Source: Rufibacter sp. LB8 (GTDB taxonomy: Bacteria; Bacteroidota; Bacteroidia; Cytophagales; Hymenobacteraceae). From it: DNA of 64,000 bases. This document shows positions 40,855 to 62,793 of this stretch, one piece after another. The stretch lies in NCBI RefSeq assembly GCF_014876185.1, contig NZ_JADALJ010000001.1, forward strand, positions 2,151,501 to 2,215,500, in the 5' to 3' direction. Every line of letters starts with the position of its first letter. The first letter of the stretch is position 1. The notes under the pieces were generated by a model. It ran no database searches. It was not told where the DNA came from and saw nothing but the letters and a program-made list of their open reading frames with translations. The position numbers and the translations under genes were made by a program.

Positions 40855-40919
40855 CAAAGCTACAGCCCCCTTCTCCTGAGAAACATGACCTACACCATAC
40901 CGCGCACTGATTTTGGTCA
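40855..40919 (-). promoter_or_regulatory. hemN promoter with two FNR/FixK-like boxes
   Basis: The -7 box TAGCTTTG is at 40862-40855. A half-conserved box TGACCTACACCA lies at 40886-40897, edge-to-edge 31 nt from the -7 box. A full box TGATTTTGGTCA is at 40908-40919, 22 bp further. No -33 TTG is visible. Confidence 0.72.
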
Positions 40920-41131
40920 CATTTCAGATTTGGAGCCCGAAAACGGAAACCCTATTGGTTGAAAGATGAACTGAGCGGAAAAACCAACTCCCGTTTTCGG
41001 GCTCAATTTCAGAAATGAGCCCGAAAACGGGAGTTGCTGGAATGTTAATTCAATAGGCAAAAATTTCTGAGTTCGAATTGGGATGCCTGCGTGATGATAT
41101 AAAAAATGTGATGAATTCTTCACTTAAACTA

Positions 41132-41261
41132 ACCCACCCCTACCCCTCCGAGGAGGGGAATGGAATGCGTAAGTATTAAAAAATCAGGACCATTACTTAC
41201 TAACATCATCTTCAACTAATTGTGCTGAAAATTCCCCTCCGAGGAGGGGTTAGGGGTGGGT
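41132..41261. mobile_element. 130-bp inverted-repeat element (MITE-like)
   Basis: About 30-bp inverted ends (ACCCACCCCTACCCCTCCGA and complement) flank about 70 bp of unrelated sequence. GGAATGCGTA occurs next to the left end. A sister copy is at 57946-58069. Confidence 0.65.
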
Positions 41262-41284
41262 CTTGCTTCGTTCACAAAGTCTCC

Positions 41285-42160
41285 TTACGCCACGGGAACC
41301 GCCTGCGCCGTTGACTCATGTTCATGGTGGCAGAAAGAACAAGAACCGGCGCAGCTTTTCAGTTTCTGCTGGTACAGGTTGAGCAGCGGAATGGCTGTCT
41401 GGCACGACTGGGTTTTGCGGTAGGTGGGCTGCGTGTATTGCTGAGCCAGGTGCGTGTCTTTGGTGGCCATCACAAATAAATCCACGGGCTGTTTCTCCAG
41501 CACTTCCTGCAGGCCTTCAATCAGGTCTTCTTCCTCCATCAGCAAATACGTGGCACCAGAAGATTTCAGCAATCCCCGTAATTCCTCGCCCTGGCGCTTG
41601 ATCTCTGCCAGGTGGTTGCGGTCAGACTTGGGGTAGAAATGCACCAAAGACACAGACGCCCGGAACAGATCTGCCAGGGTTTTCAGTTGGCTCACCACGG
41701 CAGGGTCCTGGTCGGTGAAGTCGGTGGCGTAGACTAAATGCTGAATGGGTTTGTATTCGGCTTTCTCCGGCACCCACAGCACGGGGCAATGTTCAAAATA
41801 TTGCAACGACCAGGCCTGTTGCTCTCCCTGCACCACTTCCAACATCTCAGAACCGGCAATCACTAAATCCGGCTGATGTACCTGCACCAGCAACGGCAGC
41901 GCCTCGGCCCAACGGTCATGACTGAGCAGGCATTCCAGGTGCTGCGGTTGGGCGCGCTGGCGGGTTGGGCAGGCATACCGCTTGGCGAAGCTATGCAGCC
42001 GCTGCGAGTACTGGTAATGATCCGTCATGGACATGGGCGCGCCGTTGGAACTGAAGACCAACAACACATCGGCGCCTTGGTGACAGGCCATCTCCACGGC
42101 ATAGCGGTAGGCGTTCACGCTGTTGTCAGACAAATCTGTGAGTACTAATATCTTTTTCAT
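41285..42160 (-). CDS. universal stress protein with Cys/His-rich tail
   Basis: A 291-residue UspA-like protein from ATG 42160 (MKKILVLTDLSDNSVNAYRYA). It has two tandem Usp folds; the second contains LVYATDFTDQDPAV. The last 22 residues carry CAGSCSFCHHEHE (C270, C274, C277, H278, H279, H281), which looks like a metal or redox site and is not part of normal Usp proteins. It lies 53 bp behind the SafE-like gene in the ccoG operon, so a link to oxidase assembly, copper handling or low-oxygen stress is possible. Confidence 0.85.
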   Translation of the reverse strand: MKKILVLTDLSDNSVNAYRYAVEMACHQGADVLLVFSSNGAPMSMTDHYQYSQRLHSFAKRYACPTRQRAQPQHLECLLSHDRWAEALPLLVQVHQPDLVIAGSEMLEVVQGEQQAWSLQYFEHCPVLWVPEKAEYKPIQHLVYATDFTDQDPAVVSQLKTLADLFRASVSLVHFYPKSDRNHLAEIKRQGEELRGLLKSSGATYLLMEEEDLIEGLQEVLEKQPVDLFVMATKDTHLAQQYTQPTYRKTQSCQTAIPLLNLYQQKLKSCAGSCSFCHHEHESTAQAVPVA

Positions 42161-42213
42161 CTTCAATAGGTTAAGCGTGAACACGTATTTTATTTCCCGG
42201 TTAAGGGCAGTTA

Positions 42214-42930
42214 TTATCTAGGAGAATGGCAGGTGGCAATGGGCTTCTCCCCTGCTTCTGTTTGCGCCAGTTGCGGGCTCACGTACGGAATGCCCAGATT
42301 GAGGCCCCGCAAAATGAACAGCACCGCCATGAACGTGGCCGCGTACGGGATAGACTTCTTAAAGAACCGCCGTAGCCCCGGCCCTACCAATTTGCCAGAC
42401 ACCGAGAGCAAAAACATCAACGGAAACGTGCCCAACCCAAACAGCGCCATATAGCCCATGGCGGCCGGCACGCTAGGCATGCTTACCGCCCCCGCCATGG
42501 CGAAGTACACAAACCCGCAAGGCAGCAGTCCGTTCAACAAACCAATAGCGCCCATGGACCACCAAGACGGATTCTTAAAAAAATGGCCCATGGCTTTCTG
42601 ATTTTTTTGCAGCAGCGCCTCCACCCCGGTTACTTGTCTGAACTTCCCAGACACGGCAGCCGGTACCACCACCAACACCAGAATCAAAACCCCGGAGAAG
42701 ATGGAAAGCCCCTGCTGAAAACCCGCTAACTGGAAACTCTGGCCCAGCAAACCGGCCACCGCCCCCAAGGCAGTATAAGAGATAATGCGTCCCAAATTGT
42801 ACAGCAACCGGCCTGAAAGGAAGGAAAACCCCGCGCCTTTGCCCATGGGCAAGGCCATGGCAATGGGGCCGCACATGCCCACGCAGTGAAAACTGCCCAA
42901 AATCCCGAATAAAAACCCTGCCCAGATCAT
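42214..42930 (-). CDS. SafE/TauE-like membrane protein of the cbb3 assembly cluster
   Basis: A 238-residue polytopic protein of the sulfite exporter TauE/SafE family subtype found with cbb3 oxidase genes. It has FHCVGMCGPIAMALPMG near the N-terminus and LLPCGFVYFAMAGAVS in the middle. The CVGMC and LPCG cysteines suggest metal or redox handling, possibly copper delivery to CcoN. It starts 1 bp after ccoH ends, so the two are tightly coupled. Confidence 0.87.
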   Translation of the reverse strand: MIWAGFLFGILGSFHCVGMCGPIAMALPMGKGAGFSFLSGRLLYNLGRIISYTALGAVAGLLGQSFQLAGFQQGLSIFSGVLILVLVVVPAAVSGKFRQVTGVEALLQKNQKAMGHFFKNPSWWSMGAIGLLNGLLPCGFVYFAMAGAVSMPSVPAAMGYMALFGLGTFPLMFLLSVSGKLVGPGLRRFFKKSIPYAATFMAVLFILRGLNLGIPYVSPQLAQTEAGEKPIATCHSPR

Positions 42931-42931
42931 G

Positions 42932-43408
42932 TTACTCCAGCGTAAGGTCTTGTTTCATGAAATACTGCTGACCCTCGGCCTGCCAGCTTACTTCTACCCG
43001 CCAGAAACCTTTGGCCAGTTGGGCGGTGCTGATGTGCTGCTGCAAATCACTGTTCAAAGCCAAGGCTACTTCTATGTCTTGCTGGCTGTCTGAGGGCCTG
43101 AAAAACCGCACGTTTCCTTTCAGTTTCTGACCTTTAAATGCCTCTGGAAATACCAGACTCACTTGCTCCGCGGCGGCGGCGTGCACAATGGTAAGCGGTT
43201 GCGCCAAGGCCTGGGTTTGGCTCAATTGGTCCATGCGCTGGCCGTATTCCAGTTCCTGTTGGTAGTAGTCTTTTGACACCAGGTTCACTTCGCTCTGCAT
43301 GGCGCCGCGCACCATAAAGGCAATGTAGCAGATGAACAGCACGAAGGCCGTGATGATCAACCTGGGCCACCAGGCGCCACTTTTCTTAGCTGGACTAGTT
43401 GTTGTCAT
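42932..43408 (-). CDS. ccoH: FixH/CcoH family protein
   Basis: A 158-residue protein with one N-terminal membrane helix (WPRLIITAFVLFICYIAFMV) and a periplasmic beta-sandwich containing SKDYYQQELEYGQRMDQ, the hallmark of FixH. CcoH helps assemble or stabilise cbb3 oxidase. It lies between ccoG and the SafE-like gene on the same strand. Confidence 0.92.
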   Translation of the reverse strand: MTTTSPAKKSGAWWPRLIITAFVLFICYIAFMVRGAMQSEVNLVSKDYYQQELEYGQRMDQLSQTQALAQPLTIVHAAAAEQVSLVFPEAFKGQKLKGNVRFFRPSDSQQDIEVALALNSDLQQHISTAQLAKGFWRVEVSWQAEGQQYFMKQDLTLE

Positions 43409-43475
43409 GATTTCTAGGGGTAAGCTCCCGTTGACCAGAAGCAGTTATTTTTATGCTTGTTTGCTGTCTTTTATT

Positions 43476-44876
43476 TTATTTGCCCGGGCCCAGGAACTTG
43501 GTTTTCTCTTTGGAAATCAGTTCATCGCCGCTATACACGCCCAGTTCAATCTCCGTAGACATTCCGCTGAGTTTCTGGCCGTCAATCTCCACGAAGAACA
43601 CGCCTTCAGTGATGCCCTGCGCGGGCAATACCATCTCGTTGCGCACCAGTTTCACCTTACCCGCGGGCCGGAGAACTTTCACGGTGATGGGCATGGGCGC
43701 GTTGGTTTTGTTGATGACTGAGATGTTGTAGAGGTTGCTGATGTGGCCGTTCTCTTTTTTCTGGTAGAGCATGCCCGGTGTGCGCAAGACGGTGGCGTCT
43801 ACGTTGCTTCGGGTCACCAACAGCGCTACAAACCCAGCCATTAACAAGACCAGCACCACGGTGTAGCTTTTCATGCGGGCCGTGAACCGGGTGGGCGTGC
43901 CCAGGGCAATGCTTTCCTCTGACGAATATTTGATCAGGTTCTGCGGCTTGCCAATCAGGTCCATGATGTTGTTGCAGGCGTCAATGCAGGCGGTGCAGTT
44001 AATGCATTCCATCTGCTGCGCGCCGTTCCTGATGTCAATGCCCGTGGGACACACAGACACACACTGGTGGCAGTCAATGCAGTCGCCGGCGGTGCGTTCC
44101 ACGTTTTTGCGGAGTTTCTCACGGGGTTCACCTCGCACGTAATCATAGGCAATCACGCTGGTTTTCTTGTCCATCATGACGCCTTGCAGCCGCCCGTAGG
44201 GGCACACAATGGTACACACCTGCTCCCTGAACCGGGCAAATACGCCGTAAAAAATGCCCGTGAAAATGACCATGGAAGACAAGCCGCCTACGTGGTTGGC
44301 GGGGGCGTCTGTCACTATTTTCTGCAGTTCCTCTACCCCAATAATGTAGGCCAGAAACGTGTTGGCAATCACAAATGAAATGGCCAGGAACGCCAGGTGC
44401 TTCAAGCTCTTTTTCCAGAATTTCTCAAAGGTGAGTGGGGCTTTGTCCAGGGCTTTCTGCTTGTTGAAATCGCCCTCAATCCAGTACTCAATGCGCCGGA
44501 ACACCATTTCCATGAAAATGGTCTGGGGGCACACCCAGCCGCAGAACACGCGCCCAAACACAATGGTGAACAGAATGATGAACAGCACAAAGGCCATGAA
44601 CCCCACCAGCAGAATAAAGAAATCCTGCGGCCAGAAAATCATGCCCATGATGATGAACTTGCGCTCGGGCAAATTGAGCATCAACACCGGCAAATCATTG
44701 ATTTTCAGGAACGGGCCTATGAACAGAAGCGCCAGAAAGCCATAGCTTACCAGCTTGCGGTAGTTGTAGAACTTTCCGCTGGGCTTCTTGGGGTACACCC
44801 ACACGCGTTTGCCGTCTTTGTCAACGGTGGCAATGGTATCCCGGAAGGCGTCATGATCTACTACTACCTGGCTCAT
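43476..44876 (-). CDS. ccoG: cytochrome c oxidase accessory protein CcoG
   Basis: A 466-residue membrane iron-sulfur protein (FixG/RdxA). Seen: VWVYPKKPSGKFYNYRK, several membrane helices, the CGWVCPQTIFME motif, and two ferredoxin clusters (CIDCHQCVSVCPTGIDI and CINCTACIDACN). The C-terminal Ig-like FixG domain ends the protein. CcoG is thought to reduce copper for insertion into CcoN. It is first in an operon with ccoH, SafE-like and probably the stress protein, driven by a promoter with two FNR/FixK-like boxes. Confidence 0.96.
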   Translation of the reverse strand: MSQVVVDHDAFRDTIATVDKDGKRVWVYPKKPSGKFYNYRKLVSYGFLALLFIGPFLKINDLPVLMLNLPERKFIIMGMIFWPQDFFILLVGFMAFVLFIILFTIVFGRVFCGWVCPQTIFMEMVFRRIEYWIEGDFNKQKALDKAPLTFEKFWKKSLKHLAFLAISFVIANTFLAYIIGVEELQKIVTDAPANHVGGLSSMVIFTGIFYGVFARFREQVCTIVCPYGRLQGVMMDKKTSVIAYDYVRGEPREKLRKNVERTAGDCIDCHQCVSVCPTGIDIRNGAQQMECINCTACIDACNNIMDLIGKPQNLIKYSSEESIALGTPTRFTARMKSYTVVLVLLMAGFVALLVTRSNVDATVLRTPGMLYQKKENGHISNLYNISVINKTNAPMPITVKVLRPAGKVKLVRNEMVLPAQGITEGVFFVEIDGQKLSGMSTEIELGVYSGDELISKEKTKFLGPGK

Positions 44877-44930
44877 TTCTTTCTCTGTTTGGGGGTTGCA
44901 CTCAGAAAGGGTCTTCTCCTTTCTACCCTA

Positions 44931-44995
44931 CAAAATTCAGGGTTTTGCCCCAGCCAGAAGATGACGCCGGTCATGTAGCGCAGTGATTCTTGTCA
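44931..44995 (-). promoter_or_regulatory. ccoG promoter with two FNR/FixK-like boxes
   Basis: The -7 box GAATTTTG is at 44938-44931. The proximal box TGACGCCGGTCA lies at 44962-44973, 31 nt edge to edge. The distal box TGATTCTTGTCA is at 44984-44995, 22 bp further upstream. Confidence 0.8.
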
Positions 44996-45852
44996 AAGGC
45001 GATGTGGAGAGGTGGGGATGTAAAAACGATGACGTGCGTTTTCGGGCTCATTTCTGGAAACGAGGCCGAAAACGGACGTTGGCGGAGACACTCGTAGGAG
45101 CTGCGCACACTACGAGGTCCTTTGGGCGGGCGTTTGTCGGAACCTCCACCTGTAGAGACAAGGCAGTGCCTTGTCTCTACCACGCATTGCTCCTTTGTCC
45201 TATATTTGGAGTCATCTTGCGGAAGACTCCAGACAACGGAAGGAATCCAGAAGTGCCCTTACCTGCACAAGAAATCATCCCCCTACCCCCTTCAAAGGGG
45301 GACGGAATGCGTGTAAATAAGACATAAAAATGTAAAAAGCGTTTTCGGGCTCATTTCTGGAAATGGAGCCAAAAACGGATGTTGATAACACAAGGGCTTC
45401 ACCTGCCGCAAGTTTAGCGCTAGCGTAACTTGTGGCAGCACACGTTGTAAGTTTATAAACTTACGTCAGTTGATAAACTGACTCGGTGCATTCCCACAAG
45501 TTACGCTGGCGCTAAACTTGCGGGAGTTTTTTTATGCTATCTATGCTGTTCGGGATTTACCAATCCCGAACCACTCTGTCGGGGATTTCCTAATCCCCGC
45601 TGCTAGAAAACGGGGATTAGGAAATCCCCGACAGATAACTTTCGGATTGGTAAATCCGAAAGAGCTGGGTGACTTGCGTTTTCGGCCTCATTTCAGAAAA
45701 TGAAGCCGAAAACGGAAACTAGCCCTTACCTTTTCGACCCAAATTTCAAGACTTGGAAAACTTTAATTACATACGTTTTATGGCGCGTTCCGTCCCCCTT
45801 TGAAGGGGGACGAAATGCGTAAAAAGCAATGAATGAACATTCCCAAAACAAA

Positions 45853-45913
45853 AAAGGAATGCCCATTGAGCATTCCCTTTCGTTCAAGAGATGTGCGGAA
45901 ATTCCGCATCTCT
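45853..45913 (-). terminator. double hairpin after ccoP
   Basis: Two adjacent hairpins: GGAATGC/GCATTCC near 45856-45876 with A/T flanks, and CGGAA/TTCCG with GAGATG/CATCTC extensions at 45888-45913, just downstream of the ccoP stop. Confidence 0.6.
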
Positions 45914-45934
45914 CCCATTAAACACTAACAATAA

Positions 45935-46831
45935 TTACTTCTTTCCTTCATATTTCTCGCCTTGCGGGGCTTTGCCGTTGGCGGGTTTGGTGCCTTGCAG
46001 GCTGAGGAGGTAGCTGGACACTTCCAGAATCTGGTCATCTGAGAGTTTGCTTTGCCAGGCCACCATGCCTTTGCTGGTCACGCCGTATTTGATCACTTTG
46101 AACACATCGTTCACGTCGCCGCCGTGGAGCCAGAATTCATCGGTGAGGTTGGGGCCTACCATGCCTTCGCCGTTCTGGCCGTGACAGGCCGCGCAGTTCT
46201 GGGTGTAGGTGGCGTGGCCGGCTTCCAGCAGAGCCGCGTCTGTGAGCGGTTTGAAGTTGGTGACTTCCTGGGCATTGCCCGAGCCGTCTTTGGGCTGAAG
46301 CAGGGCCGCTTGCTGCATCTCATGTTGGTATTCTGCGTCCTGCAGTTTGCCGCCCCACACGTGGTAGTTCAGCAGGTACACCACAGAAAACACAATGGTG
46401 GCGTAGAAACTGTATTTCCACCAGGGCGGAAGGTCATTGTCAAATTCATGGATGCCGTCATAGTCATGGTCGTCCAGCACCACGTCGGTGGCTTTGCCGG
46501 TGAGCAGTTGGGCATCGCCACGCAAAAGGGCAATCAGGCGGGCCATGAACGAGTGCTCCAGGCCCGGGCGGGCGTACAGTTTCTCCAGCAACGGCAAACT
46601 CTGCACGAAGACCATGCCGCCCAACACCAGCACCGCCGTTAACAGCAGCCCCGTGAGGCAGAGCACCAGCAAACCCGCCGTGGACAAGCCCGGTATGCCG
46701 AACATGCTTTCAGGCGCGGCTTCTGGGGCAGCGGCGGTTGCAGCTTCCTGCGCCCAGCTGGGCAAACTCAGCAGCCAGGCACCCGCCAGCGCCAGGGCCG
46801 GTTTAGAAGAGAGCGTAAAATTAGTTTTCAT
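45935..46831 (-). CDS. ccoP: cbb3-type cytochrome c oxidase subunit III
   Basis: A 298-residue membrane-anchored cytochrome c. It has a signal-like start, two membrane helices (about 48-75 and 140-160), the FixP N-terminal motif YDGIHEFDNDLPPWWKYSF, and one heme c domain (NCAACHGQNGEGMVGPNL). Proteobacterial CcoP has two heme domains; this one has one, as is common in Bacteroidota. It passes electrons to CcoN. The last codons of ccoQ overlap its start by 11 bp. Confidence 0.95.
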   Translation of the reverse strand: MKTNFTLSSKPALALAGAWLLSLPSWAQEAATAAAPEAAPESMFGIPGLSTAGLLVLCLTGLLLTAVLVLGGMVFVQSLPLLEKLYARPGLEHSFMARLIALLRGDAQLLTGKATDVVLDDHDYDGIHEFDNDLPPWWKYSFYATIVFSVVYLLNYHVWGGKLQDAEYQHEMQQAALLQPKDGSGNAQEVTNFKPLTDAALLEAGHATYTQNCAACHGQNGEGMVGPNLTDEFWLHGGDVNDVFKVIKYGVTSKGMVAWQSKLSDDQILEVSSYLLSLQGTKPANGKAPQGEKYEGKK

Positions 46832-47030
46832 AACGCAGGTGGGTTAACGGCGTGGCTACTTCCTCGCCCTCAGGCTGTTGCAGGGGCATGGCGCTCATGG
46901 CGGCAATGTGCTGCTTGTCTGAGAAAATCACGAACAAGAGCAACCCGATGAAAAACACGAAGAAGATTAAAAACGAGATAATTGGGTAAATGGCGATGCC
47001 GTCAATGGATTGCAGTATATTTTTATACAT
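46821..47030 (-). CDS. ccoQ: CcoQ/FixQ-like small subunit
   Basis: A 69-residue protein with a single membrane helix (AIYPIISFLIFFVFFIGLLLFVIF) and a short cytoplasmic tail. Size and position between ccoNO and ccoP match CcoQ, which stabilises the oxidase. It overlaps ccoP by 11 bp, suggesting translational coupling. Confidence 0.85.
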   Translation of the reverse strand: MYKNILQSIDGIAIYPIISFLIFFVFFIGLLLFVIFSDKQHIAAMSAMPLQQPEGEEVATPLTHLRYEN

Positions 47031-47335
47031 GGCTCTTATGTTAAGTTAAGAGTTGAGAATTATGAGTTAAAAGTTGGGCTCGTTCCAGTTCCCTGGCTTG
47101 AAGCACCCCTGGGGCTTGACTAATTTTTTTTTGTAAAAGAAGCAGGAACAGGTAGGGGCGTTTTCGGGCTCATTCCCCCAAACGAAGCCAAAAACAGCAC
47201 CCTCCCTTTTTCCCCATGCAAATGGGAATTCCTACTTTTCTTTTTGAGACACAAGATGTAAGATACAAGACGCAAGACTTCAACTCTTCAAATTCCACTT
47301 CACATCTCTTGCGTCTTGCGGCTTACATCTTGTGT
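47031..47335. other. gap between ccoNO and ccoQP
   Basis: No gene. It has a mixed-arm family A hairpin at 47159-47197 and an inverted-repeat pair (GACACAAGATGTAAG near 47247 and CTTACATCTTGTGTC near 47322). No FNR/FixK-like box is seen, so ccoQP is probably read through from ccoNO or has another promoter. Confidence 0.55.
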
Positions 47336-49516
47336 CTACTTTTCAGTTTTCACTTTTATGTCAGTGCCCAGGCGTTGCAGGTAGGCAATGAGGGCGACAA
47401 TCTCTTTCTCAGGTTTCACTTCTATGCCTTCCTTGGCCAGCTCGGCAGAGATTTGGGCAGCTTGTTTCTGCAGGTCGGCGTTGGCCTGTTGGGCGTAGCC
47501 GGCGGGATATGGTGTGCCCAGTTTCTGCAGGGCTTCAATCTTGACCGGTGTGTCTGAGGTGTCTAAGTCTTTCTCAAACAACCACGGGTAAGCGGGCATA
47601 ATAGAACCCGGCGACATGCTGGTGGGGTCTAACATGTGGTGGTAGTGCCAGCTGTGCGGGTACTTTCCGCCTACGCGGTGCAAGTCTGGCCCGGTGCGCT
47701 TAGAACCCCACAGGAACGGACGGTCATACACAAACTCGCCGGCTTTGGAATACTCGCCGTAGCGCTCGGTTTCTGACCTAAACGGCCGAACCATTTGCGT
47801 ATGGCAGTTCACACAGCCTTCCTTGATATAGACGTCGCGGCCCTGTAATTCCAGTGATGTGTAAGGCTTCACTGAAGCAATGGTCGGCACGTTAGATTCT
47901 ACTAAGAAGGTAGGAATCATCTCCACAGCCCCGCCAATCAGGATAGCCACGGTGGCCCATACCGCCATTTGAATAGGACGACGCTCAATCCAGCGGTGCC
48001 AGTGTCCTTTATGCTCCACGCCTTTAATCATAGGCATCATTGGCGCGGCGTGGGCTTCTTCGTTGGCGAGCAAAGACCCGGATTTCACGGTCTTAATCAC
48101 GTTGTAGAGCATCACAAACACACCGCCCAGGTACAACACGCCCCCAATACCACGCAGGTAATACATAGGCACCAATTGCAGCACGGTCTCTAAGAAGTTA
48201 GAGTATTGCAACAGGCCGTCTTGGTTAAACTGTTTCCACATTAAGCCTTGGGTGAAACCGGCCCAGTACATAGGAATGGCGTAGAACAGAATCCCCAGCG
48301 TACCTAACCAGAAGTGCACATTGGCCAGTTTTTTAGAATATAGTTTAGTCTGAAAAATGCGCGGCAACAGCCAATAGATAATCCCGAAGGTCAGGAACCC
48401 GTTCCAGCCTAGTGCGCCTACGTGTACGTGTGCTACTATCCAGTCTGTAAAGTGAGCAATGGCGTTCACGTTTTTCAGCGACAGCATAGGGCCTTCAAAC
48501 GTAGCCATACCGTAGGCCGTGATAGCCACTACCATGAACTTAAGCACCGGCTCTTCGCGCACTTTGTCCCAGGCACCGCGCAAGGTCAGGAGGCCGTTAA
48601 TCATCCCGCCCCAGCTAGGCGCCAAAAGCATCACCGAGAACACCACGCCCAAACTCTGCGCCCAATCGGGCAAAGACGTGTACAGCAAATGGTGCGGACC
48701 GGCCCAAATGTAAATGAAAATCAAGGACCAGAAGTGGATGATGGATAATCTATAAGAATATACCGGACGATTAGCCGCCTTGGGCAGGAAGTAATACATC
48801 ATGCCCAGGTACGGCGTGGTCAAAAAGAATGCGACTGCGTTGTGGCCATACCACCACTGCACCAGCGCATCTTGCACCCCGGCGTAACCAGAGTAGCTTT
48901 TCATGAACGTCACCGGAATCTCGTAGGAGTTCACAATGTGTAGCACCGCCACGGTCAAAAAAGTAGCAATGTAAAACCAGATACCCACGTACAGGTGGCG
49001 CTCGCGGCGTTTCAGAATGGTTCCGAACATGTTCCAGCCGAACACTACCCACACTACCGTAATGGCAATGTCAATGGGCCACTCTAATTCAGCGTATTCT
49101 TTAGAAGTGGTGTAGCCCAAGGGCAGCGTAATCACGGCAGCTACAATAATCAACTGCCAGGCCCAGAAATGGATTTTACTGAGCACATCTGAATACATGC
49201 GGGTTTTGCAGAGGCGCTGCAAACTGTAATACACCCCCATGAAAATACCGTTGCCCACAAAGGCGAAAATCACGGCGTTGGTGTGCAAGGGCCGTACCCG
49301 CCCGAAGGTGGTGTACTCGGTGCCCATGTTCAGTTCTGGCCGCGCCAGCTGGAAAGCGATCAGCACGCCGATCATCATACCGGCTATTCCCCAGAACAAG
49401 GTGGCGTACGCAAAGTCCCTGACAATCTTGTTGTCATAGAAGAAGGTATCTACCCAACTGGGGTCGTCGGTTTTCCGGAGCGGCGGATTGGGTTTGGTGA
49501 GGGTTAGCGTTGACAT
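47336..49516 (-). CDS. ccoNO: fused cbb3-type cytochrome c oxidase subunits I and II
   Basis: A 726-residue fusion of CcoN and CcoO. The N-terminal two thirds (about 1-480) are the heme-copper oxidase core with heme and CuB ligand histidines in RPLHTNAVIFAF, QWWYGHNAVAFFL, AGPHHLLYT and VAHVHVGALGWNG. From about residue 510 a CcoO part follows with one membrane helix and a heme c site (GCVNCHTQMVRP). Such fusions are known in Bacteroidota. It is the catalytic core of the high-affinity oxidase. Its promoter has two FNR/FixK-like boxes. Confidence 0.95.
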   Translation of the reverse strand: MSTLTLTKPNPPLRKTDDPSWVDTFFYDNKIVRDFAYATLFWGIAGMMIGVLIAFQLARPELNMGTEYTTFGRVRPLHTNAVIFAFVGNGIFMGVYYSLQRLCKTRMYSDVLSKIHFWAWQLIIVAAVITLPLGYTTSKEYAELEWPIDIAITVVWVVFGWNMFGTILKRRERHLYVGIWFYIATFLTVAVLHIVNSYEIPVTFMKSYSGYAGVQDALVQWWYGHNAVAFFLTTPYLGMMYYFLPKAANRPVYSYRLSIIHFWSLIFIYIWAGPHHLLYTSLPDWAQSLGVVFSVMLLAPSWGGMINGLLTLRGAWDKVREEPVLKFMVVAITAYGMATFEGPMLSLKNVNAIAHFTDWIVAHVHVGALGWNGFLTFGIIYWLLPRIFQTKLYSKKLANVHFWLGTLGILFYAIPMYWAGFTQGLMWKQFNQDGLLQYSNFLETVLQLVPMYYLRGIGGVLYLGGVFVMLYNVIKTVKSGSLLANEEAHAAPMMPMIKGVEHKGHWHRWIERRPIQMAVWATVAILIGGAVEMIPTFLVESNVPTIASVKPYTSLELQGRDVYIKEGCVNCHTQMVRPFRSETERYGEYSKAGEFVYDRPFLWGSKRTGPDLHRVGGKYPHSWHYHHMLDPTSMSPGSIMPAYPWLFEKDLDTSDTPVKIEALQKLGTPYPAGYAQQANADLQKQAAQISAELAKEGIEVKPEKEIVALIAYLQRLGTDIKVKTEK

Positions 49517-49540
49517 GTACGTGGTGTTTATTGAACACTA

Positions 49541-49605
49541 CAAATGTCAGGAGTACCGCCAGGGAAAAAGATGACGGTTGTCAGTTGCGCGGGTGATTGA
49601 TGTCA
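49541..49605 (-). promoter_or_regulatory. ccoNO promoter with two FNR/FixK-like boxes
   Basis: The -7 box GACATTTG is at 49548-49541. Proximal box TGACGGTTGTCA at 49572-49583 is 31 nt away edge to edge; distal box TGATTGATGTCA at 49594-49605 is 22 bp further. Confidence 0.8.
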
Positions 49606-54660: not shown

Positions 54661-54685
54661 GGGTCTTCGGCCTTTGAATCAATCA

Positions 54686-54781
54686 CAAAATTACCCTGGC
54701 TTGTCCCCTGAAATTATGATGCACATCACTCTTTTAGATGATTCTTACCGCTTTACAGGTAAACTTCTTCCCTCATCTTTG
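54686..54781. promoter_or_regulatory. divergent ccoI / 54890 promoter region with FNR/FixK-like boxes
   Basis: Toward ccoI: -7 box TAATTTTG (54693-54686) with box TGATGCACATCA (54717-54728), 31 nt apart edge to edge. A weaker box TGATTCTTACCG lies at 54739-54750, 22 bp further. From that box a plus-strand -7 box CATCTTTG (54774-54781) is again 31 nt away, so the array may serve both directions. Confidence 0.75.
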
Positions 54782-54807
54782 TACAAAGAGATCCGGCTTT
54801 CCGGCAA

Positions 54808-54852
54808 TTCCCGTTTTCGGCTTCATTTCTGAAAACGAGGCCAAAAACGGAA
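54808..54852. repeat. family A hairpin in a predicted 5' leader
   Basis: It lies between the predicted divergent promoter (54774-54781) and the ATG at 54890, so it would be in the 5' untranslated region of that transcript. Confidence 0.75.
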
Positions 54853-54889
54853 GTCATATTCTACTTCGCAGCACTTAAATCTCTCGTTT

Positions 54890-55354: not shown

Positions 55355-55372
55355 ACTTTTATCGCTATTAAT

Positions 55373-56015: not shown

Positions 56016-57281
56016 CTACACTTCCTGCTTCATCTCCAGATTAAACAACGCACTCAAACCAGCCAATAACTCCTCAGAATCGCCACGTTTGCAGGCGGCT
56101 TTGAGTTCCAGGACGGGGAGTTTGATGATTTTCTGGAGCATGCTTTTGGTGAGGGCCTCCACGGCTTCTTTCTCAGTAGGGTTCAGGTGCTTGAGGTGGC
56201 GGGCCATCTCTAACTGCCGAATTTCCTCCAGGCGCTTCTTGAAATTCTGAATGGCCGGTGAGAACGCCATTTCTTGGGTCCAGGCCAGGAATTCTTCCAG
56301 AGATTCAGCGATGATGGTATGCACTTCTGGCAAGGCCGCCATTCGTTTTTCCAGGGCCTCAGAGGCGCGGTTCCGGATGCCGTCAATGTTATAGACGCAG
56401 GCGCCCGGAAGCGTTTCAATAGTGCTGTCCACGCTGCGCGGAATGGAAAGGTCTATGAAGAATTTGTTCACGGCCTTCATGCGGGGCGCTACCTGCGCTT
56501 TGCTGATGAAAAACGCATCGCCGGGTACCGAGGAAATGACCACATCGGCTTTGGTGATTTCGGTCCAGACGTTTTCCCAGGGCTGGGCCTGCGCGTGGCA
56601 TTCAAGGGCTAAAGCTTCGGCAGTGGCGAAAGTTCTGTTGACTACCACCAGATCAATGCCGGCAGATTTCTTGAAGTTGCGGCACACGTTGGCGCCAATA
56701 TCGCCCAGGCCAATCATAAGCACCCGCGGACGGTTCAGGTCTTTGGTGAGTTCTTCCACCAGTTCCACCGTAGCATAGGCCGCTGAGGCCGCGCCGTCTT
56801 TAAAACCGGTTTCGTTCACCACGCGCTTGTTGGCGAAGAAAACGGAATGGAGTAAGCGGTGTAGAATTGGGCCAGCCAAATTAGCGTCTGTAGACCATTG
56901 GTAGGCGCTTTTCACCTGATTCAGAATCTGCATATCGCCCACCACCTGCGACTCCACGCCCAGCGCCACCCGGTATAGGTGCTGCATGGCTTCTTTGGGG
57001 TCGGTTAAATGCCGGAAAAACGGACTGATGGATTTAGACGCAATGAAGCCTTTCTCCAGGGCAATCAGTTTGATGATTTCGCGGGAAAGGTCTTTCTCTG
57101 CCGCGTAATAGACTTCGGTGCGGTTGCAGGTGGAAAGCACCAGCACTTCCTTGGCCGACGTGAATTCCTGTATTTTCTGCAACAGGTTACGGCTGGCGGT
57201 TTCATTCAGAGACACAGCCTCTCGGACGGCAATGGGGGCGTGCTTGTAAGAAAGGGTGAGCGCTTTGAATGGAACGTGCAT
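56016..57281 (-). CDS. hemA: glutamyl-tRNA reductase
   Basis: A 421-residue HemA, which reduces glutamyl-tRNA to glutamate-1-semialdehyde, the first step of heme synthesis. Seen: KALTLSYKHAPIAVREAVSL, the catalytic cysteine in LSTCNRTEVYYA, the NADPH fold RVLMIGLGDIGANVCRNF and the dimerisation domain at the C-terminus. I choose ATG 57281 rather than 57314 because the predicted -7 box is at 57302-57309, so a transcript would begin downstream of 57314; 57281 also gives the usual N-terminus. The promoter belongs to the FNR/FixK-like set. Confidence 0.95.
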   Translation of the reverse strand: MHVPFKALTLSYKHAPIAVREAVSLNETASRNLLQKIQEFTSAKEVLVLSTCNRTEVYYAAEKDLSREIIKLIALEKGFIASKSISPFFRHLTDPKEAMQHLYRVALGVESQVVGDMQILNQVKSAYQWSTDANLAGPILHRLLHSVFFANKRVVNETGFKDGAASAAYATVELVEELTKDLNRPRVLMIGLGDIGANVCRNFKKSAGIDLVVVNRTFATAEALALECHAQAQPWENVWTEITKADVVISSVPGDAFFISKAQVAPRMKAVNKFFIDLSIPRSVDSTIETLPGACVYNIDGIRNRASEALEKRMAALPEVHTIIAESLEEFLAWTQEMAFSPAIQNFKKRLEEIRQLEMARHLKHLNPTEKEAVEALTKSMLQKIIKLPVLELKAACKRGDSEELLAGLSALFNLEMKQEV

Positions 57282-57301
57282 GGCTTCGTCTAAATCTAGG
57301 A

Positions 57302-57366
57302 CAAAGTTCGGCACAGGGCCCTTTGCAAAAGATGACGAAGGTCAGTTTCCCTAAAGATGTTGGTCA
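57302..57366 (-). promoter_or_regulatory. hemA promoter with two FNR/FixK-like boxes
   Basis: The -7 box GAACTTTG is at 57309-57302. Box TGACGAAGGTCA at 57333-57344 is 31 nt away edge to edge; a second box AGATGTTGGTCA (one mismatch) is at 57355-57366, 22 bp further. Confidence 0.78.
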
Positions 57367-57945
57367 GGTTTTCCGTTTAGGGGCTCGTTTTGGGAAATGA
57401 AGGCGAAAACGCAAACACTCTACTCCAACTGGTTCAAGTTTTCAACTTGGACCTATCCATGACCTGAAGTTTTCAACTTCAGTGAAGCGAAAGCTTCAAT
57501 TTCTTTGGAGAGGACCGTTCGTTTTTGGGCTCAGTTTTGGAAATGGGGGCAAAAACAGCCCCACCCCTGGCCCCTCCCCAACGGCTAATCTTGCAGGGAA
57601 AAATATAAGTTTGCTGTTCGGGAGTTCTACTCCCGAACCTTCCTGCTGCGGAGTTCCACTCCGCCGGGAACCACGCGCAGACGTAGGGGAGTAGAACTCC
57701 CAATCAGTTTGTTTCTGGAGTAGAACTCCAGAAGAGCAGTCAAGCCCTATCCCTACGGGAAAAATTGCCCCTGAATCACGACTTGATTTAGATGCTGTAA
57801 TTTCAGGAATACGTGGGTTGAAGCTGGCGCTTCACTGAAGTTACAAACTTCAGGTCGTGGGTGGGTCCAAGTTGAAAACTTGAACCAGCGAAAAGGCAAT
57901 TTCCTGTTTTTGGCTCCGTTTTGGGAAATGAGGCTAAAAACGGAA

Positions 57946-58069
57946 ACCCACCCCTACCCCTCCGAGGAGGGGAATTATCAGGAATGCGTGGTTTTGAAAA
58001 CTTATTTTATTTACCAAATCCACCAAGTACACATTTCAATTCCCCTCCTCGGAGGGGGTAGGGGTGGGT
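57946..58069. mobile_element. 124-bp inverted-repeat element (MITE-like)
   Basis: Ends ACCCACCCCTACCCCTCCGA and the near-complement enclose about 60 bp; CAGGAATGCGTG lies next to the left end. Sister copy at 41132-41261. Confidence 0.65.
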
Positions 58070-58096
58070 TATCGCCTGCAGTTTTTCTCTATAAAC

Positions 58097-59158
58097 TCAA
58101 TTCCGCATGCGGGTGAGTTTGTCTGAATTTAAAATGGTGATTTTGCCGCCGGAGATGTTGATGAGTTTTTCGTCTTTGAAGTCTGATAGGGTTCTGATGA
58201 CAGTCTCTTTGGAGGCGCCCACAATGTTGGCCAAATCCTCGCGGGAAATGCTCACCGGCGCGTGTACGCCGTTTTCTTTTTGGTATTGTTTCTCCACTAG
58301 CAGCAGAGATTCAGCCACGCGTTTGCGGACGGAGTTGTAGGCCAGTTTTAACAAGCGTTCTTCACGCTCGGCCAGGTTGTCTGACAGGATTTTGATGAAT
58401 TTGTTGGCGACGTCGCGGTTTTTGTGGAGTAAGGAGAAGAAATCATCTTTGGGGATGAGGCAGACTTCGGTGTCTTCCAGGGCTTCGGCTGATTCACGGT
58501 AGGCTTGGTCTTCCAGCAGATCCAGGTAGCCAATGAAATCGCCTTCTTTGTAGAGGTTGGTGATAAATTCGCGGCCTTCCTCGTTGGTTTTGTAGGTTTT
58601 GACTTTGCCTTTGTTCAAAAAGAAAAGCGTGTGCGGGTACTGGCCTTCAGCGAACAGCTGGTGCTTCTTTTTGTAGGTGACAATTTTCTGGTCTTGCGAG
58701 ATGAATTTGTTCAGGTCTTCCAGGCCTTTGGCCTCTTGCATAAACTCCTGCAGGCCGGCGGCGTTCTTCTGGAAGTCGCCTTTCACAATCTCGTTTTTCT
58801 TGAGGCGCATCTCCACCGCGTCCAGCAGTTCCAGGTCATCAAACGGCTTAATCAGATAATCATCGGCGCCCAAATTCATGCCTTTTCTAAAGTCTTCTTT
58901 TTCAGATTTGGCCGTTAAAAATATAAACGGAATGGTAGCGGTGGCGGGGTTTTTACTCAGGATATTCAGCACACCGTAGCCGTCTAGCTGGGGCATCATG
59001 ATGTCACAAATAATCAGGTCTGGGGCGTGCTGTTTGGCCAGTTCCACGCCTACTTTCCCGTTTTCGGCCTCCAGAATATCATAGTTGGCCAATGCCAAAA
59101 TTTCAGAAATATTCTCCCGTATTTCCGTGTTGTCTTCTATCAAAAGGATTTTTTTCAC
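58097..59158 (-). CDS. receiver-Crp/Fnr fusion transcription factor
   Basis: A 353-residue fusion. Residues 1-120 are a response-regulator receiver with phospho-acceptor D52 (ICDIMMP). Residues about 150-265 are a cyclic-nucleotide-binding-like effector domain. The C-terminus is a Crp-type HTH with recognition helix ASKETVIRTLSDF, keeping the E and R used by FNR/CRP but with I where FNR has S. No N-terminal FNR-type iron-sulfur cysteines are seen, so oxygen is not sensed that way. It starts at GTG 59158, overlapping the kinase stop by 4 bp (GTGA). It is the best candidate to bind the TGAY-N4-RTCA boxes. Confidence 0.92.
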   Translation of the reverse strand: MKKILLIEDNTEIRENISEILALANYDILEAENGKVGVELAKQHAPDLIICDIMMPQLDGYGVLNILSKNPATATIPFIFLTAKSEKEDFRKGMNLGADDYLIKPFDDLELLDAVEMRLKKNEIVKGDFQKNAAGLQEFMQEAKGLEDLNKFISQDQKIVTYKKKHQLFAEGQYPHTLFFLNKGKVKTYKTNEEGREFITNLYKEGDFIGYLDLLEDQAYRESAEALEDTEVCLIPKDDFFSLLHKNRDVANKFIKILSDNLAEREERLLKLAYNSVRKRVAESLLLVEKQYQKENGVHAPVSISREDLANIVGASKETVIRTLSDFKDEKLINISGGKITILNSDKLTRMRN

Positions 59159-60387
59159 AGCTCAGTGGTTTTAGGAAGTTCAACGGTGAACGTGGTGCCT
59201 TGGTGCAGTGCACTCTCAAAGGTGAGCGTGCCCTGCATGATGTCTACGTACCGTTTCACGATGTTGAGACCCAGCCCGGTGCCTTCATAGTTGGCCGCGT
59301 TCTGCGCCCTGAAAAAGAGCGTAAAAAGGTGCTGCTGGTCTTGGGCAGGAATGCCGATGCCCTCGTCTTTCACCGTAATTTTTATTTCTTTGGCAGACGT
59401 CTGGGTGGTAAGATAAATATTTTTTCCTTCTGCAGAGTACTTGCTGGCATTGGAAAGCAGGTTGAGCAGCACGTTTTTGAGCAGTTGCTTGTCCAGCGTA
59501 ACCGCATCTGCGGCGCCCTGGTGCTGGTAGTGGATTTGCTGGCCTACCTTGATGTAACTCTGCATTTCGTCTACCACCTCAGCCGCGAACGGCTCCAGCT
59601 CAAAGGTGGTGGGCACGTTGTAAATCTTGCCTTCCTCAATGCGGCTCAGGCTCAGGAAATCATTGAGAATGCCGGTCAAATTGCTCACCGCGCTCTTGAT
59701 GCGGTGCACGTGTTTCTGGCGCTTGTCATCATCTTCCTCAGTTTGGTAACGGCCAATCAGAGACGCCGACGACAGCACCGTGCTCAGCGGCGTTCTAAAT
59801 TCATGCGAGGCGATGGTCACAAACCGGGATTTCAGCTCGTTCAGTTCTTTCTCTTTCTGCAGTGCTTTGTTGATTTCCTGCTGGGCTTTGAAGAGGCTGC
59901 GGTTAGAGCTCTCCAGTTCTTTGATGGCCTGAGCCAATTCCTGTGTGCGGTCAGCCACGCGCTGTTCCAGTTCTGCGTTCAGTTTCTGGATTTCGGCTAG
60001 GTTCTTGGCGTGCTCCATGCTGTACCTAATGGAGCGCTCCAGATCAAACGGACTGATGGTGCCTTTGACCAGGTAATCAGACGCGCCCAGGCGCATGGCG
60101 CGTTCGTCAGTTTCGCGGTCAGACTGACCGGTGAGTAGGATGAGTGGTGCAGTAGTGCCGCTTTCCAGCGCCTGCGTAATGAGCTCCAGCCCGTCATGCG
60201 CGCCCAGCCGGTAGTCTACCAGGTAAATGTCATGCCGTTTTTCAGCAATGATTTCCAATGCCTCGGTAAACGAAGCGGTCCAATCCAGGGAATATTTGCG
60301 CGCCGGAATGTCTGAGATGATGTCACGGGTGATGATGTAGTCGTCTTCATCGTCATCAATTAGCAGGATTTTGATAGGGTCTGACAT
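59155..60387 (-). CDS. receiver-histidine kinase hybrid
   Basis: A 410-residue soluble protein from ATG 60387 (MSDPIKILLIDDDEDD). The receiver is N-terminal (D58 in YLVDYRLG), then a coiled coil (about 125-185), HisKA with H195 (ASHEFRTPLS), and an ATPase domain with NLLSNASKYS, DEGIGIP and GTGLGLNIVKRYV. It is probably phosphorylated on its receiver and passes signal to the receiver-Crp/Fnr protein encoded with a 4-bp overlap. An upstream extension of the frame runs into repeats and is excluded. Confidence 0.92.
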   Translation of the reverse strand: MSDPIKILLIDDDEDDYIITRDIISDIPARKYSLDWTASFTEALEIIAEKRHDIYLVDYRLGAHDGLELITQALESGTTAPLILLTGQSDRETDERAMRLGASDYLVKGTISPFDLERSIRYSMEHAKNLAEIQKLNAELEQRVADRTQELAQAIKELESSNRSLFKAQQEINKALQKEKELNELKSRFVTIASHEFRTPLSTVLSSASLIGRYQTEEDDDKRQKHVHRIKSAVSNLTGILNDFLSLSRIEEGKIYNVPTTFELEPFAAEVVDEMQSYIKVGQQIHYQHQGAADAVTLDKQLLKNVLLNLLSNASKYSAEGKNIYLTTQTSAKEIKITVKDEGIGIPAQDQQHLFTLFFRAQNAANYEGTGLGLNIVKRYVDIMQGTLTFESALHQGTTFTVELPKTTEL

Positions 60388-60716
60388 ACGCGTGCGCCGT
60401 GTGGTTTTGTGTGGATGATGTGGGTTTCCGTTTTTGGCTTCGTTTTGGCAAATGAGGCGAAAAACAGCCCCACCCCCGGCCCCTCTCCCACGGAGAGGGG
60501 AATTTCTATTTATTTGGATTTCCTTTATATGGCGCGGATTTACTTCCGTGACTAACCATAATATCAGCAAGTAAATCCGCGCCAGAGGTGTCTGCCATAA
60601 GTGAATGATAAAAATTCAACCACTTCTGCAAGCTCCCCTTTCCATTGGAGAGGGGCCGGGGGTGAGGTCCGTTTTTGGTTCCGTTTCCAAAAATGAGCCC
60701 GAAAACGGAAAATCAG
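60388..60716. repeat. repeat-rich gap between signalling operons
   Basis: No gene and no FNR/FixK-like box. It has family A hairpins at 60425-60466 and 60669-60711, a long inverted repeat at 60529-60585 (sister of 5957 and 51901), and G/C hairpins near 60465-60500 and 60630-60667. Confidence 0.75.
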
Positions 60717-61166
60717 CTACACCTTAGGCAGTTCCACCAGTTCAAACCAATAGTCGGTGAGGGTTTTCATCATGTCTACCAGCGCCACGAAAGTGACGGG
60801 TTTGGTGATGAACGAGCTCACGCCCAGGTCATAGGTTTTGATGATGTCTTCCTCGGCTTTGGAGGTGGTGAGCACCACAATGGGAATCATGCGCAGGTGC
60901 GGGTCTTCCTTTATCTCTTTGAGCGCTTCGCGACCGTCTTTTTTGGGCATGTTGAGATCCAGCAGTATAAGGCCGGGCAGCGGGAATTTCTCGCGGTCCT
61001 GGTACTGACCCTCGCCGTGCAGGTAGTCCATGAGCACTTCGCCGTTCTCCACAAACTGCAGGGCGTTTTTCAGCCGGTTTTCCTCCAGCGCTTCTTTGAG
61101 CAACATGCGGTCTTCGGCGTCATCATCGGCTATCAGAATCAGGATAGATTTTTTAGGGTTGTTCAT
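60717..61166 (-). CDS. single-domain response regulator (Rcp1-like)
   Basis: A 149-residue receiver without output domain. Acidic pocket ADDDAED (residues 13-19), phospho-acceptor D70 in LLDLNMP, conserved T in VLTTS and K in FITKPV. This type partners with PAS/phytochrome-like kinases as a phosphate shuttle. It starts 8 bp after the PAS kinase gene. Confidence 0.93.
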   Translation of the reverse strand: MNNPKKSILILIADDDAEDRMLLKEALEENRLKNALQFVENGEVLMDYLHGEGQYQDREKFPLPGLILLDLNMPKKDGREALKEIKEDPHLRMIPIVVLTTSKAEEDIIKTYDLGVSSFITKPVTFVALVDMMKTLTDYWFELVELPKV

Positions 61167-61174
61167 AGGCGCGG

Positions 61175-62725
61175 TTACTCGGTGGTTTGTTTGGTGGCGA
61201 GGGTGATGAAAAACTGCGTTCCCAGGCCGGGTTGGCTTCTGGCGGTGATGTCGCCGCCGTGTCTGATGGCTATTTTACGGCAGATGGCCAGGCCTATGCC
61301 CGAGCCTTCGTACTTCTGGCCGTCTAGCCGCTGAAAGATATTAAAAATTCTGTCAAGGTATTTTTCATGGAACCCGATGCCGTTGTCCTGAATCTCAATC
61401 TCCACTTTCTCGTCGCCGGGGGTGGCCGTGAGGTGCGCCTGGCGCTGGGTCAGGCGGGCGGTGATTTTGATGATGGGTGCCACATCTTCTTTCCTGAATT
61501 TCATGGCGTTACTGATCAGGTTCTGGAACAGCTGGCGCATTTGGGTGGGCTCTGCCTCAATCTCCGGCAACGGCGATCGAATAATCTGCGTGCCCGTTTT
61601 CTCAATGGTCACTTCCAAATCTGACAGCACTTCTGAGAGAATCTGATCCAGGTTCACGCGCACGAATGGTTTGCTTTTGGTAGTCACGCGCGAGAAGGCC
61701 AGCAGGTCATTAATCAGGTTTTGCATGCGCGAAGCCGCGTTGAGCATGCGGTCTACGTAATCTTTTCCTTGCTCACTCAGGTTGTCCAGTTCCTTACTTT
61801 TCAGCCTATCGCCAAAGGCCTGAATCTTGCGCAGCGGCTCCTGCAAATCATGTGAAGACACGTAGGCGAAATCCTGTAATTCCAGATTGCTTCGCTCCAA
61901 TTCTGCCGCGTAGCGGCGCAGGCGTTCCTCGCTTATTTTCTGCAGCGTGATGTCATGGATAAAGCCGGTGTACACCTTGCGGTCACTCAGCTGCACTTCA
62001 CTGATGCTCAGGAAAAACGGAAACGTGGTACCGTCTTTGCGCAAGCCCGTCACCTCACGCCCAATGCCAATAATCTTGCGGTGCCCGGTTGCCTGGTAAT
62101 TATGAATGTAACCGTCATGCTGGCTTTTATCGGGCTCCGGCATGAGCATGTTGATACTTTTGCCAAACAGTTCCTGCGGTTCATAGCCAAACAGTTTGGC
62201 CGCCGAAGGGTTGATCATTTCCATGGTGCCGCGCGTGTCAATGGTAATAATGCCATCTACGGCCGCCTGAATGATGGAAGAGATTTTGTTTTCGCTTTCG
62301 CGAAGTGCGGCCTCTGCTTTCTTGAGGTTGGAAATGTCATGCACAATGCCCGTAAAAATCTGCTTGTCCTGCAGTTTCACTTCACTGATGCTCAGCAGAA
62401 ACGGGAAAACCGTTCCGTCTTTTCTTCGGCCCAAAACCTCGCGTCCAATACCGATTATTTTGCCCACGCCGGTTTGGTGATAGTTCTCAATGTACTGGTC
62501 GTGCTGGCTTCGGTCGGGCTCGGGCATGAGCATTCTGATGTTCTGGCCAATCACTTCGTCTGGCAAATACCCGAAGATGCGGGCCGCCGCCGGGTTCACG
62601 CTCTCAATGGTGCCGCGCGCGTCAATGGTGATAATGCCGTCAATGGCGGTGTCAATGATGGCTTGCAGGCGAGTCCTGTCATCTATGTTCTGCGGGGTAA
62701 CGTCTTGCGGGTTGTCTGGGGCCAT
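61175..62725 (-). CDS. FixL-like sensor kinase with two PAS domains
   Basis: A 516-residue soluble kinase. Two PAS domains (about 18-138 and 147-265) each contain LMPEPD-[RK]-SQHD-x-YI and KIIGIGREV. Aligned to FixL, these keep the proximal heme histidine (H75, H203) and distal arginine (R95, R223). The second FixL distal-pocket histidine (H214) is replaced by lysine. Then come a coiled coil, HisKA (SHDLQEPLRK, H292) and ATPase domain (NLISNAMKF, DNGIGFHEKY, GSGIGLAICRKIA). An oxygen or NO-sensing heme kinase is inferred. An FNR/FixK-like box lies in its promoter. Confidence 0.9.
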   Translation of the reverse strand: MAPDNPQDVTPQNIDDRTRLQAIIDTAIDGIITIDARGTIESVNPAAARIFGYLPDEVIGQNIRMLMPEPDRSQHDQYIENYHQTGVGKIIGIGREVLGRRKDGTVFPFLLSISEVKLQDKQIFTGIVHDISNLKKAEAALRESENKISSIIQAAVDGIITIDTRGTMEMINPSAAKLFGYEPQELFGKSINMLMPEPDKSQHDGYIHNYQATGHRKIIGIGREVTGLRKDGTTFPFFLSISEVQLSDRKVYTGFIHDITLQKISEERLRRYAAELERSNLELQDFAYVSSHDLQEPLRKIQAFGDRLKSKELDNLSEQGKDYVDRMLNAASRMQNLINDLLAFSRVTTKSKPFVRVNLDQILSEVLSDLEVTIEKTGTQIIRSPLPEIEAEPTQMRQLFQNLISNAMKFRKEDVAPIIKITARLTQRQAHLTATPGDEKVEIEIQDNGIGFHEKYLDRIFNIFQRLDGQKYEGSGIGLAICRKIAIRHGGDITARSQPGLGTQFFITLATKQTTE

Positions 62726-62750
62726 GCCGGTTCAGTTCTGGGTGCTAAGG

Positions 62751-62793
62751 CAAAAATACGAATTTCAAGGTAGCATGGGTATGATGAATGTCA
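62751..62793 (-). promoter_or_regulatory. promoter of the PAS kinase with FNR/FixK-like box
   Basis: The -7 box TATTTTTG is at 62758-62751; box TGATGAATGTCA at 62782-62793 is 31 nt away edge to edge. There is no second box at 22 bp. It suggests feedback from the regulator to its sensor. Confidence 0.72.

Follow-up and report, generated by a model that had tools for sequence, protein, structure and literature searches.

The closest described relatives of the system treated here come from rhizobia. According to PMC7888657 and PMC4999443, the heme-PAS kinase FixL, whose kinase is inactivated by oxygen binding (PMC4999443), acts on FixJ, which activates the fixK gene, and a Crp/Fnr activator serves cbb3 oxidase and heme genes at a palindromic operator; the FNR/FixK anaerobox is given as TTGAT-N4-ATCAA (PMC7888657). 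For Flavobacterium psychrophilum, low oxygen is reported to induce cbb3 and heme genes (PMC9723704). Searches of the open-licence literature turned up no account of the receiver-FNR fusion treated here, nor of an operator for cbb3 genes in Bacteroidota. In this paper we concentrate on a stretch of 64,000 nucleotides from Rufibacter sp. LB8, of the Hymenobacteraceae (the window; contig NZ_JADALJ010000001.1, positions 2151501-2215500, of a 4.75 Mb genome in two contigs), which holds an island of cbb3 oxidase and heme synthesis genes. Judged from sequence, six of its promoters share what appears to be a real class II Crp/Fnr operator, conserved in relatives at the main respiration and heme genes, which is most likely read by an FNR-like protein fused to a receiver domain and encoded at 58097-59158.

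A first-pass annotation of this DNA had described a box TGAY-N4-RTCA, or a near match, at the six promoters, a fixed spacing of 31 nt to a -7 box of two types and, in five cases, a second box 22 bp upstream, and all of this could be reproduced. The proximal box is exact in five of the six promoters, while that of hemN (TGGTGTAGGTCA) keeps seven of the eight fixed letters. The distance from the end of the box to the end of TTTG is exactly 31 nt in all six (box-N23-NANNTTTG), and the -7 box begins with TA in three promoters and with GA in the other three. The second box is exact at hemN, ccoG and ccoN, matches 7/8 at hemA and is a half box at ccoI; the promoter of the FixL-like PAS kinase has no second box 22 bp upstream. 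If the -7 box is placed at -12 to -5, as mapped in F. psychrophilum (PMC9723704), the centre of the proximal box falls at -41.5.

40855-40897, minus strand: hemN promoter composite, proximal box 40886-40897 (7/8) to -7 box TAGCTTTG
40908-40919, minus strand: hemN distal box TGACCAAAATCA, 22 bp upstream
44931-44973, minus strand: ccoG promoter composite, TGACCGGCGTCA to GAATTTTG
44984-44995, minus strand: ccoG distal box TGACAAGAATCA
49541-49583, minus strand: ccoNO promoter composite, TGACAACCGTCA to GACATTTG
49594-49605, minus strand: ccoNO distal box TGACATCAATCA
54686-54728, minus strand: ccoI promoter composite, TGATGTGCATCA to TAATTTTG
54739-54750, minus strand: ccoI distal half box CGGTAAGAATCA
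57302-57344, minus strand: hemA promoter composite, TGACCTTCGTCA to GAACTTTG
57355-57366, minus strand: hemA distal box TGACCAACATCT, 7/8
62751-62793, minus strand: FixL-like (PAS) kinase promoter composite, TGACATTCATCA to TATTTTTG

The box alone (TGAYN4RTCA) occurs eight times in the window against 2.37 expected. For the composite of box and -7 box we scanned TGAYN4RTCA-N24-ANNTTTG, which is far from equally frequent in shuffled sequence: the window has five exact matches, and 300 dinucleotide shuffles gave a mean of 0.017 and a maximum of one. At each of 30 other spacings the window holds none. The genome scan proposed in the first-pass annotation points the same way, since a histogram of box-to-TTTG distances over the whole genome has 13 occurrences at the 31-nt geometry against a mean of 2.5 over 26 other spacings, and a search that also demands the A of the -7 box gives 13 exact matches against one at one base longer (all but one of the sites are common to both groups of 13). 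The 13 exact copies are distributed over the window (five), two sulfur clusters (five) and other places (three): one stands ahead of a quinol nitric oxide reductase gene, 356 bases from its listed start, one precedes a DinB-like gene and one overlaps a CcmB-like gene. Composites with one mismatch are also found at the genes for a copper nitrite reductase, Ric/ScdA and a globin.

Conservation was followed in three sets of loci: 40 relatives' stretches taken around the regulator gene; a separate ccoNO set, the best 30 of 91 ccoNO genomes among 120 (our own locus and 29 relatives); and a third set made up of loci from genus codes g5 and g6, a small number from g1, g3 and g4, and loci of named Bacteroidota, leaving out short matches and loci with fewer than 250 bases upstream. 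The hemA gene was found in 37 of the 40 stretches, and all 37 carry the exact composite. At ccoNO it is exact in 30/30 loci, the own one included, and in 13/13 when Rufibacter is taken alone. The ccoNO gene is missing from 38 of the 40 stretches around the relatives' regulators, yet its composite is exact in every one of the 30 loci. Shifted spacings give no exact match at ccoNO save for one locus at -7; with one mismatch allowed, 25 loci match at -3 and six at -7. In the third set the composite is exact at 15/35 ccoNO, 19/35 ccoI and 11/11 hemA promoters, where five of the 15 ccoNO and eight of the 11 hemA sites belong to genomes already present in the first two sets.

In a logo of the ccoNO and hemA sites, positions -47 to -35 form a fixed TGA(C/T)-N4-RTCA-T, positions -33 to -31 are T's, and positions -12 to -5 mostly read GAnnTTTG; the spacer between these elements carries little information. 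The -33 region, in which the first-pass annotation had noticed no TTG at hemN, is therefore not empty, T-N-TTT at -35 to -31 being near-invariant in the relatives. When up to two mismatches are allowed, the distal box lies at 22 bp in 28/30 ccoNO and 28/37 hemA sites. Among 64 sites of named loci, with one mismatch at most, 33 have it at 22 bp and eight more at 23 bp. In two loci with divergent promoters (L115 17687-17699, L123 17551-17563) two boxes stand 22 bp apart, each of them proximal for one direction.

The arrangement extends beyond the close relatives. The surroundings of 80 regulator genes from named records hold 63 exact composites, against 0-7 at 24 other spacings. In a wider count of 64, the genes downstream, named only by similarity to the window proteins, are hemA (6), ccoG (2), ccoI (3), ccoNO (2), hemN (3), relatives of the second kinase of the window (12) and the regulator (1); the rest are weak universal-stress-protein matches and many genes without annotation. 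The kinase of the regulator operon thus has box matches in other Bacteroidota. In a phylum sample of 40 out of 99 ccoNO genomes, the box by itself, as an exact TGAYN4RTCA, is present in the roughly 600 bases before ccoNO in 19/19 Bacteroidia with a match to a receiver-Crp fusion (REC-Crp), in 10/11 Bacteroidia without such a match and in 0/10 genomes of other classes. As far as sequence comparison can tell, there is good support for the proposal that these promoters have a class II Crp/Fnr operator in common, the geometry being kept at ccoNO, ccoI and hemA and enriched at the regulators of Bacteroidota.

The identity of the operator needs qualification in one respect. The first-pass annotation had matched the core to the inner part of the FNR/FixK box, and the likeness holds for the inner TGAY-N4-RTCA, but not for the outer TT/AA of TTGAT-N4-ATCAA: the promoter-side outer base is T in all 67 sites (30/30 ccoNO and 37/37 hemA), which read RTCAT and never RTCAA. 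A different outer base characterizes the sulfur clusters. There are two parallel clusters of this kind, L003 (G000:C1:663000-682500) and L004 (1445000-1462000), with rhodanese/MBL and sulfur transport genes and, in L004, TauE. Each of them holds a Crp/Fnr gene and boxes of the type GTGAC-N4-GTCAC in the same 31-nt geometry. Among 21 sites, chosen by gene context from 34 whole-genome matches, the sulfur sites have G before and C after the box in 11/11, and the cbb3, heme and nitric oxide sites have T after it in 10/10; four of these ten (hemN, nitrite reductase, Ric/ScdA, globin) have one mismatch, and left out of the 21 are two sulfur-side sites (1464714 and 1467319, also GTCAC) and 11 others of mixed endings. 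TGTGA, the half-site of cAMP-CRP, is absent from the ten proximal cbb3/heme/nitric oxide boxes compared and present in the hemN distal box. The exact matches of sulfur type were at first included in the cbb3/heme regulon and then set apart, because 11/11 end in GTCAC and they lie in sulfur clusters with their own Crp genes. The recognition helix reads SREVISR in the sulfur Crps and SKETVIR in the 58097-59158 protein, and in CRP it is Arg180 that reads the outer G. One outer base may therefore separate two regulons of shared geometry.

The genes of the island and its regulators are the following.

39430-40836, minus strand: radical SAM protein, called hemN after the first-pass annotation (only Radical_SAM matched)
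42214-43408, minus strand: two genes, FixH (ccoH) and a DsbD_2 membrane protein
43476-44876, minus strand: ccoG
45935-46831, minus strand: ccoP
47336-49516, minus strand: ccoNO fusion, cbb3 oxidase
52216-54660, minus strand: ccoI, metal-transporting P-type ATPase
56016-57314, minus strand: hemA, glutamyl-tRNA reductase
58097-59158, minus strand: REC-CNB-Crp-HTH regulator, likely reader of the box
59155-60387, minus strand: histidine kinase (the second kinase) with N-terminal receiver, overlapping the regulator gene (start placed at the first ATG before the receiver)
60717-61166, minus strand: single receiver-domain protein
61175-62725, minus strand: FixL-like kinase with two PAS domains

The listed GTG start of hemA (57314) falls between the box and the -7 box, and because it sits inside the promoter composite the true start is probably located downstream. 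Rfam gave no match in window positions 38000-64000. A further feature of the window is a near-perfect palindrome of 38 bp (CGTTTTCGGGCTCATTT plus its complement), with 55 half-arm matches (up to three mismatches) against 0.96 expected. Copies lie for example at 12655-12692, 14404-14441, 33970-34007, 40992-41029, 45037-45074, 54812-54849 and 62820-62857, and several of the promoters discussed have a copy upstream, although the copies are not specific to them; one copy folded as RNA reaches -28.3 kcal/mol (z -7.7).

The 58097-59158 protein consists of a receiver (Pfam E 3.2e-28) followed by a CNB domain and a Crp HTH. Residues D52, T82 and K104 of the receiver are invariant (12/12), as expected for a response regulator. 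The protein has no N-terminal Cys cluster (no CxxC), and a role as Fe-S oxygen sensor was rejected for this reason. An AlphaFold model (mean pLDDT 73.8, pTM 0.39) is too weak for the domain arrangement. The genome encodes a paralogue at C1:4375227 (L216 8020-10277, G000:C1:4366000-4380000), 48% identical and with its own PAS kinase; a YceI gene near it has a composite with one mismatch. In a quick tree the two sulfur Crps are attached by a very long branch, away from both the REC-Crps and the REC-less proteins. A branch of support 79 has the REC group to one side of it (REC-less 48), so that a single origin of the REC-Crps is not established.

The occurrence of REC-Crps follows that of the oxidase, with ccoNO present in 91 of 105 genomes that have a REC-Crp and in 0/15 that have none (p 1.6e-11); no such tracking is seen for Cys-type FNRs (44/57 with FNR against 47/63 without, p 0.83). 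These p values overstate independence, since the genomes are related; the REC-Crp searches scored 14-17 candidates per genome. FNR relatives of the Pontibacter type were found in 57 of 120 family genomes at E 1e-55, and in none of the 16 Rufibacter genomes at this threshold. In 40/40 of those read, of the 57, the Cys pattern is a CxxC plus a Cys 99 residues after the second, the same step as C23-C122 in E. coli FNR. In 20 genomes of the Pontibacter group that were read, the Cys-type FNR lies within about 4 kb of ccoNO, and the recognition helix of the window regulator is close to that of these FNRs. Eleven Bacteroidia of the phylum sample gave no REC-Crp match, and among the best Crp matches read in them six genomes, all of family code f6, have a Cys-type FNR at most about 6 kb from ccoNO; these are the same six that carry the exact composite. 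The other five have such an FNR elsewhere (three) or a ccoNO-adjacent Crp without the Cys pattern (two). We lean slightly towards the view that in Bacteroidia the low-oxygen operator is fixed while its reader changes sensor, being a Cys-type FNR beside ccoNO in some lineages (Pontibacter, f6) and a receiver-fused FNR with PAS kinases in others, with Rufibacter having the receiver form alone.

Concerning the signal, the FixL-like kinase keeps the heme His and the distal Arg of FixL in both PAS domains (in the second by alignment, in the first by motif), residues whose roles we take, like that of the proximal Arg, from PMC10765370. Of the 40 relatives' kinases, 37 have two copies of the His/Arg motif and three have a single one. 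Kinases adjoining the regulator across Bacteroidota have a PAS domain in 30/35 sampled cases, the window's included, and for one such kinase FixL was the best-scoring PAS match among solved structures.

From these observations a mechanism can be proposed that covers binding, activation, the route of phosphorylation and the oxygen signal. A dimer of Crp/Fnr type would bind at -41.5, in many cases accompanied by another dimer two turns of the helix further upstream, and would recruit the housekeeping RNA polymerase of Bacteroidota, often to an off-consensus -7 box GAnnTTTG. In Rufibacter the part of the reader most likely falls to the 58097-59158 protein, which is related to FNR and carries a receiver at the place of the Cys cluster of Fe-S FNRs. 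It would be phosphorylated when oxygen falls, probably via the FixL-like kinase, the single receiver and the second kinase. Expression of the oxidase, of the factors that assemble it and of the heme pathway would rise as a result, perhaps together with that of genes for nitric oxide handling. To this overall explanation, with a class II operator, the 58097-59158 reader and a pathway from FixL to a receiver-fused FNR, we assign a probability of roughly 0.66.

Several observations weigh against it. With one mismatch allowed, the genome has 34 composites in the 31-nt geometry and 33 when the spacing is lengthened by one base (8 and 15 in controls read backwards), and because these totals are equal the one-mismatch matches as a group are not above chance. 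The relatives are not independent samples, and ccoG (2/29 exact) and hemN (3/10 exact) are poorly conserved in the third set. The promoter of the FixL-like kinase has the composite in 9/40 relatives (three exact, six with one mismatch; one L049 match at hemA, where the kinase gene is cut off, is left out), and neither the regulator gene nor the second kinase gene has it upstream (0/40), so that autoregulation as a conserved feature of the family was rejected. In the phylum sample the exact composite was found in 7/19 Bacteroidia with REC-Crp, 0/10 of other classes and 6/11 Bacteroidia without detected REC-Crp, the absence being soft with at most 14 candidates scored per genome; the box does accordingly not require the window protein, and the idea of a box unique to the REC-Crp regulator was given up. 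The best match of the FixL-like kinase is less than 49% identical or absent in 66/80 named loci and about 20-32% identical in g5/g6, and the sensor is therefore not the same throughout. Finally, proximal Arg206 of BjFixL (SmFixL Arg200) is described in PMC10765370 as important for kinase inhibition by oxygen, and the aligned position is Asn in both PAS domains, because of which oxygen control may differ from that of rhizobial FixL.

Some of these points are shared with other explanations. The boxes could be read by another Crp/Fnr protein of the genome, either the paralogue at C1:4375227 or an undetected Fe-S FNR, with the window protein controlling something else. That the paralogue exists at all, at 48% identity and with a PAS kinase of its own, and that in other Bacteroidia this box is probably a target of Cys-type FNRs, speaks for such a reader; but a second REC-Crp match is found in only four of the 14 regulator-bearing Rufibacter (the other ten have a single match), while the ccoNO boxes are exact in 13/13 Rufibacter loci, and the genome has no more than four HTH_Crp_2 proteins above the cut-off, two of which are the sulfur Crps beside a different operator. 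We consider this explanation unlikely. A slightly lower probability is given to the view that the 58097-59158 protein does read the operator, but in response to nitric oxide or redox, or with its receiver fed by some other kinase. It would account for the exact composite at the quinol nitric oxide reductase gene and the one-mismatch composites at copper nitrite reductase, Ric/ScdA and globin, as well as for the Asn at the Arg206 position and the varying kinase partner over the phylum. However, the most conserved targets are cbb3 and heme genes, the adjacent kinase keeps the FixL His and distal Arg, and one-mismatch matches as a group do not exceed chance.

Chance, or intergenic similarity inherited without regulatory meaning, is hardly credible. 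Dispersed repeats do lie near several of these promoters and the relatives share ancestry, but the box was absent from six of six repeat copies checked, exact matches do not turn up at shifted spacings, and box, -33 T's and -7 box stayed fixed while the spacers between them diverged. The reading that we find most likely is a receiver-fused FNR at a class II operator. It offers a testable low-oxygen regulon for Bacteroidia, with operator, spacing, likely reader and likely sensor. Specificity is also simple to test in this genome, which has two operators, RTCAT and GTGAC-N4-GTCAC, each going with a recognition helix of its own. If it is true, the FixL pathway has been shortened by fusion of the receiver to an FNR-like activator, and the sensory part was swapped while operator and targets were retained.

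The Cys-type FNRs of Bacteroidia resemble the window protein in their recognition helix and, near ccoNO in the Pontibacter group and the six f6 genomes, go with an identical operator in identical geometry; where they have the Cys pattern, the window protein carries a receiver. With the FNR/FixK anaerobox (PMC7888657) the operator shares the inner TGAY-N4-RTCA and the predicted centre at -41.5, and differs by T instead of the outer A of ATCAA. The likeness to rhizobial FixL-FixJ-FixK, as described in PMC7888657 and PMC4999443, comprises a heme-PAS FixL kinase, a Crp/Fnr activator, cbb3 and heme targets and a related palindromic operator; differences are the outer base and the Asn at the position of FixL Arg206. 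A separate FixJ activating fixK does not appear in the island, where receiver and Crp form one protein (no FixJ search was made elsewhere in the genome). While in rhizobia the signal passes from FixL over FixJ to the fixK gene, Rufibacter has the receiver fused to the FNR-like activator and a kinase with two FixL-type PAS domains. Just as FnrN and FixK read one box in rhizobia, according to the same sources, Cys-type FNR and REC-Crp seem to read one box in Bacteroidia.

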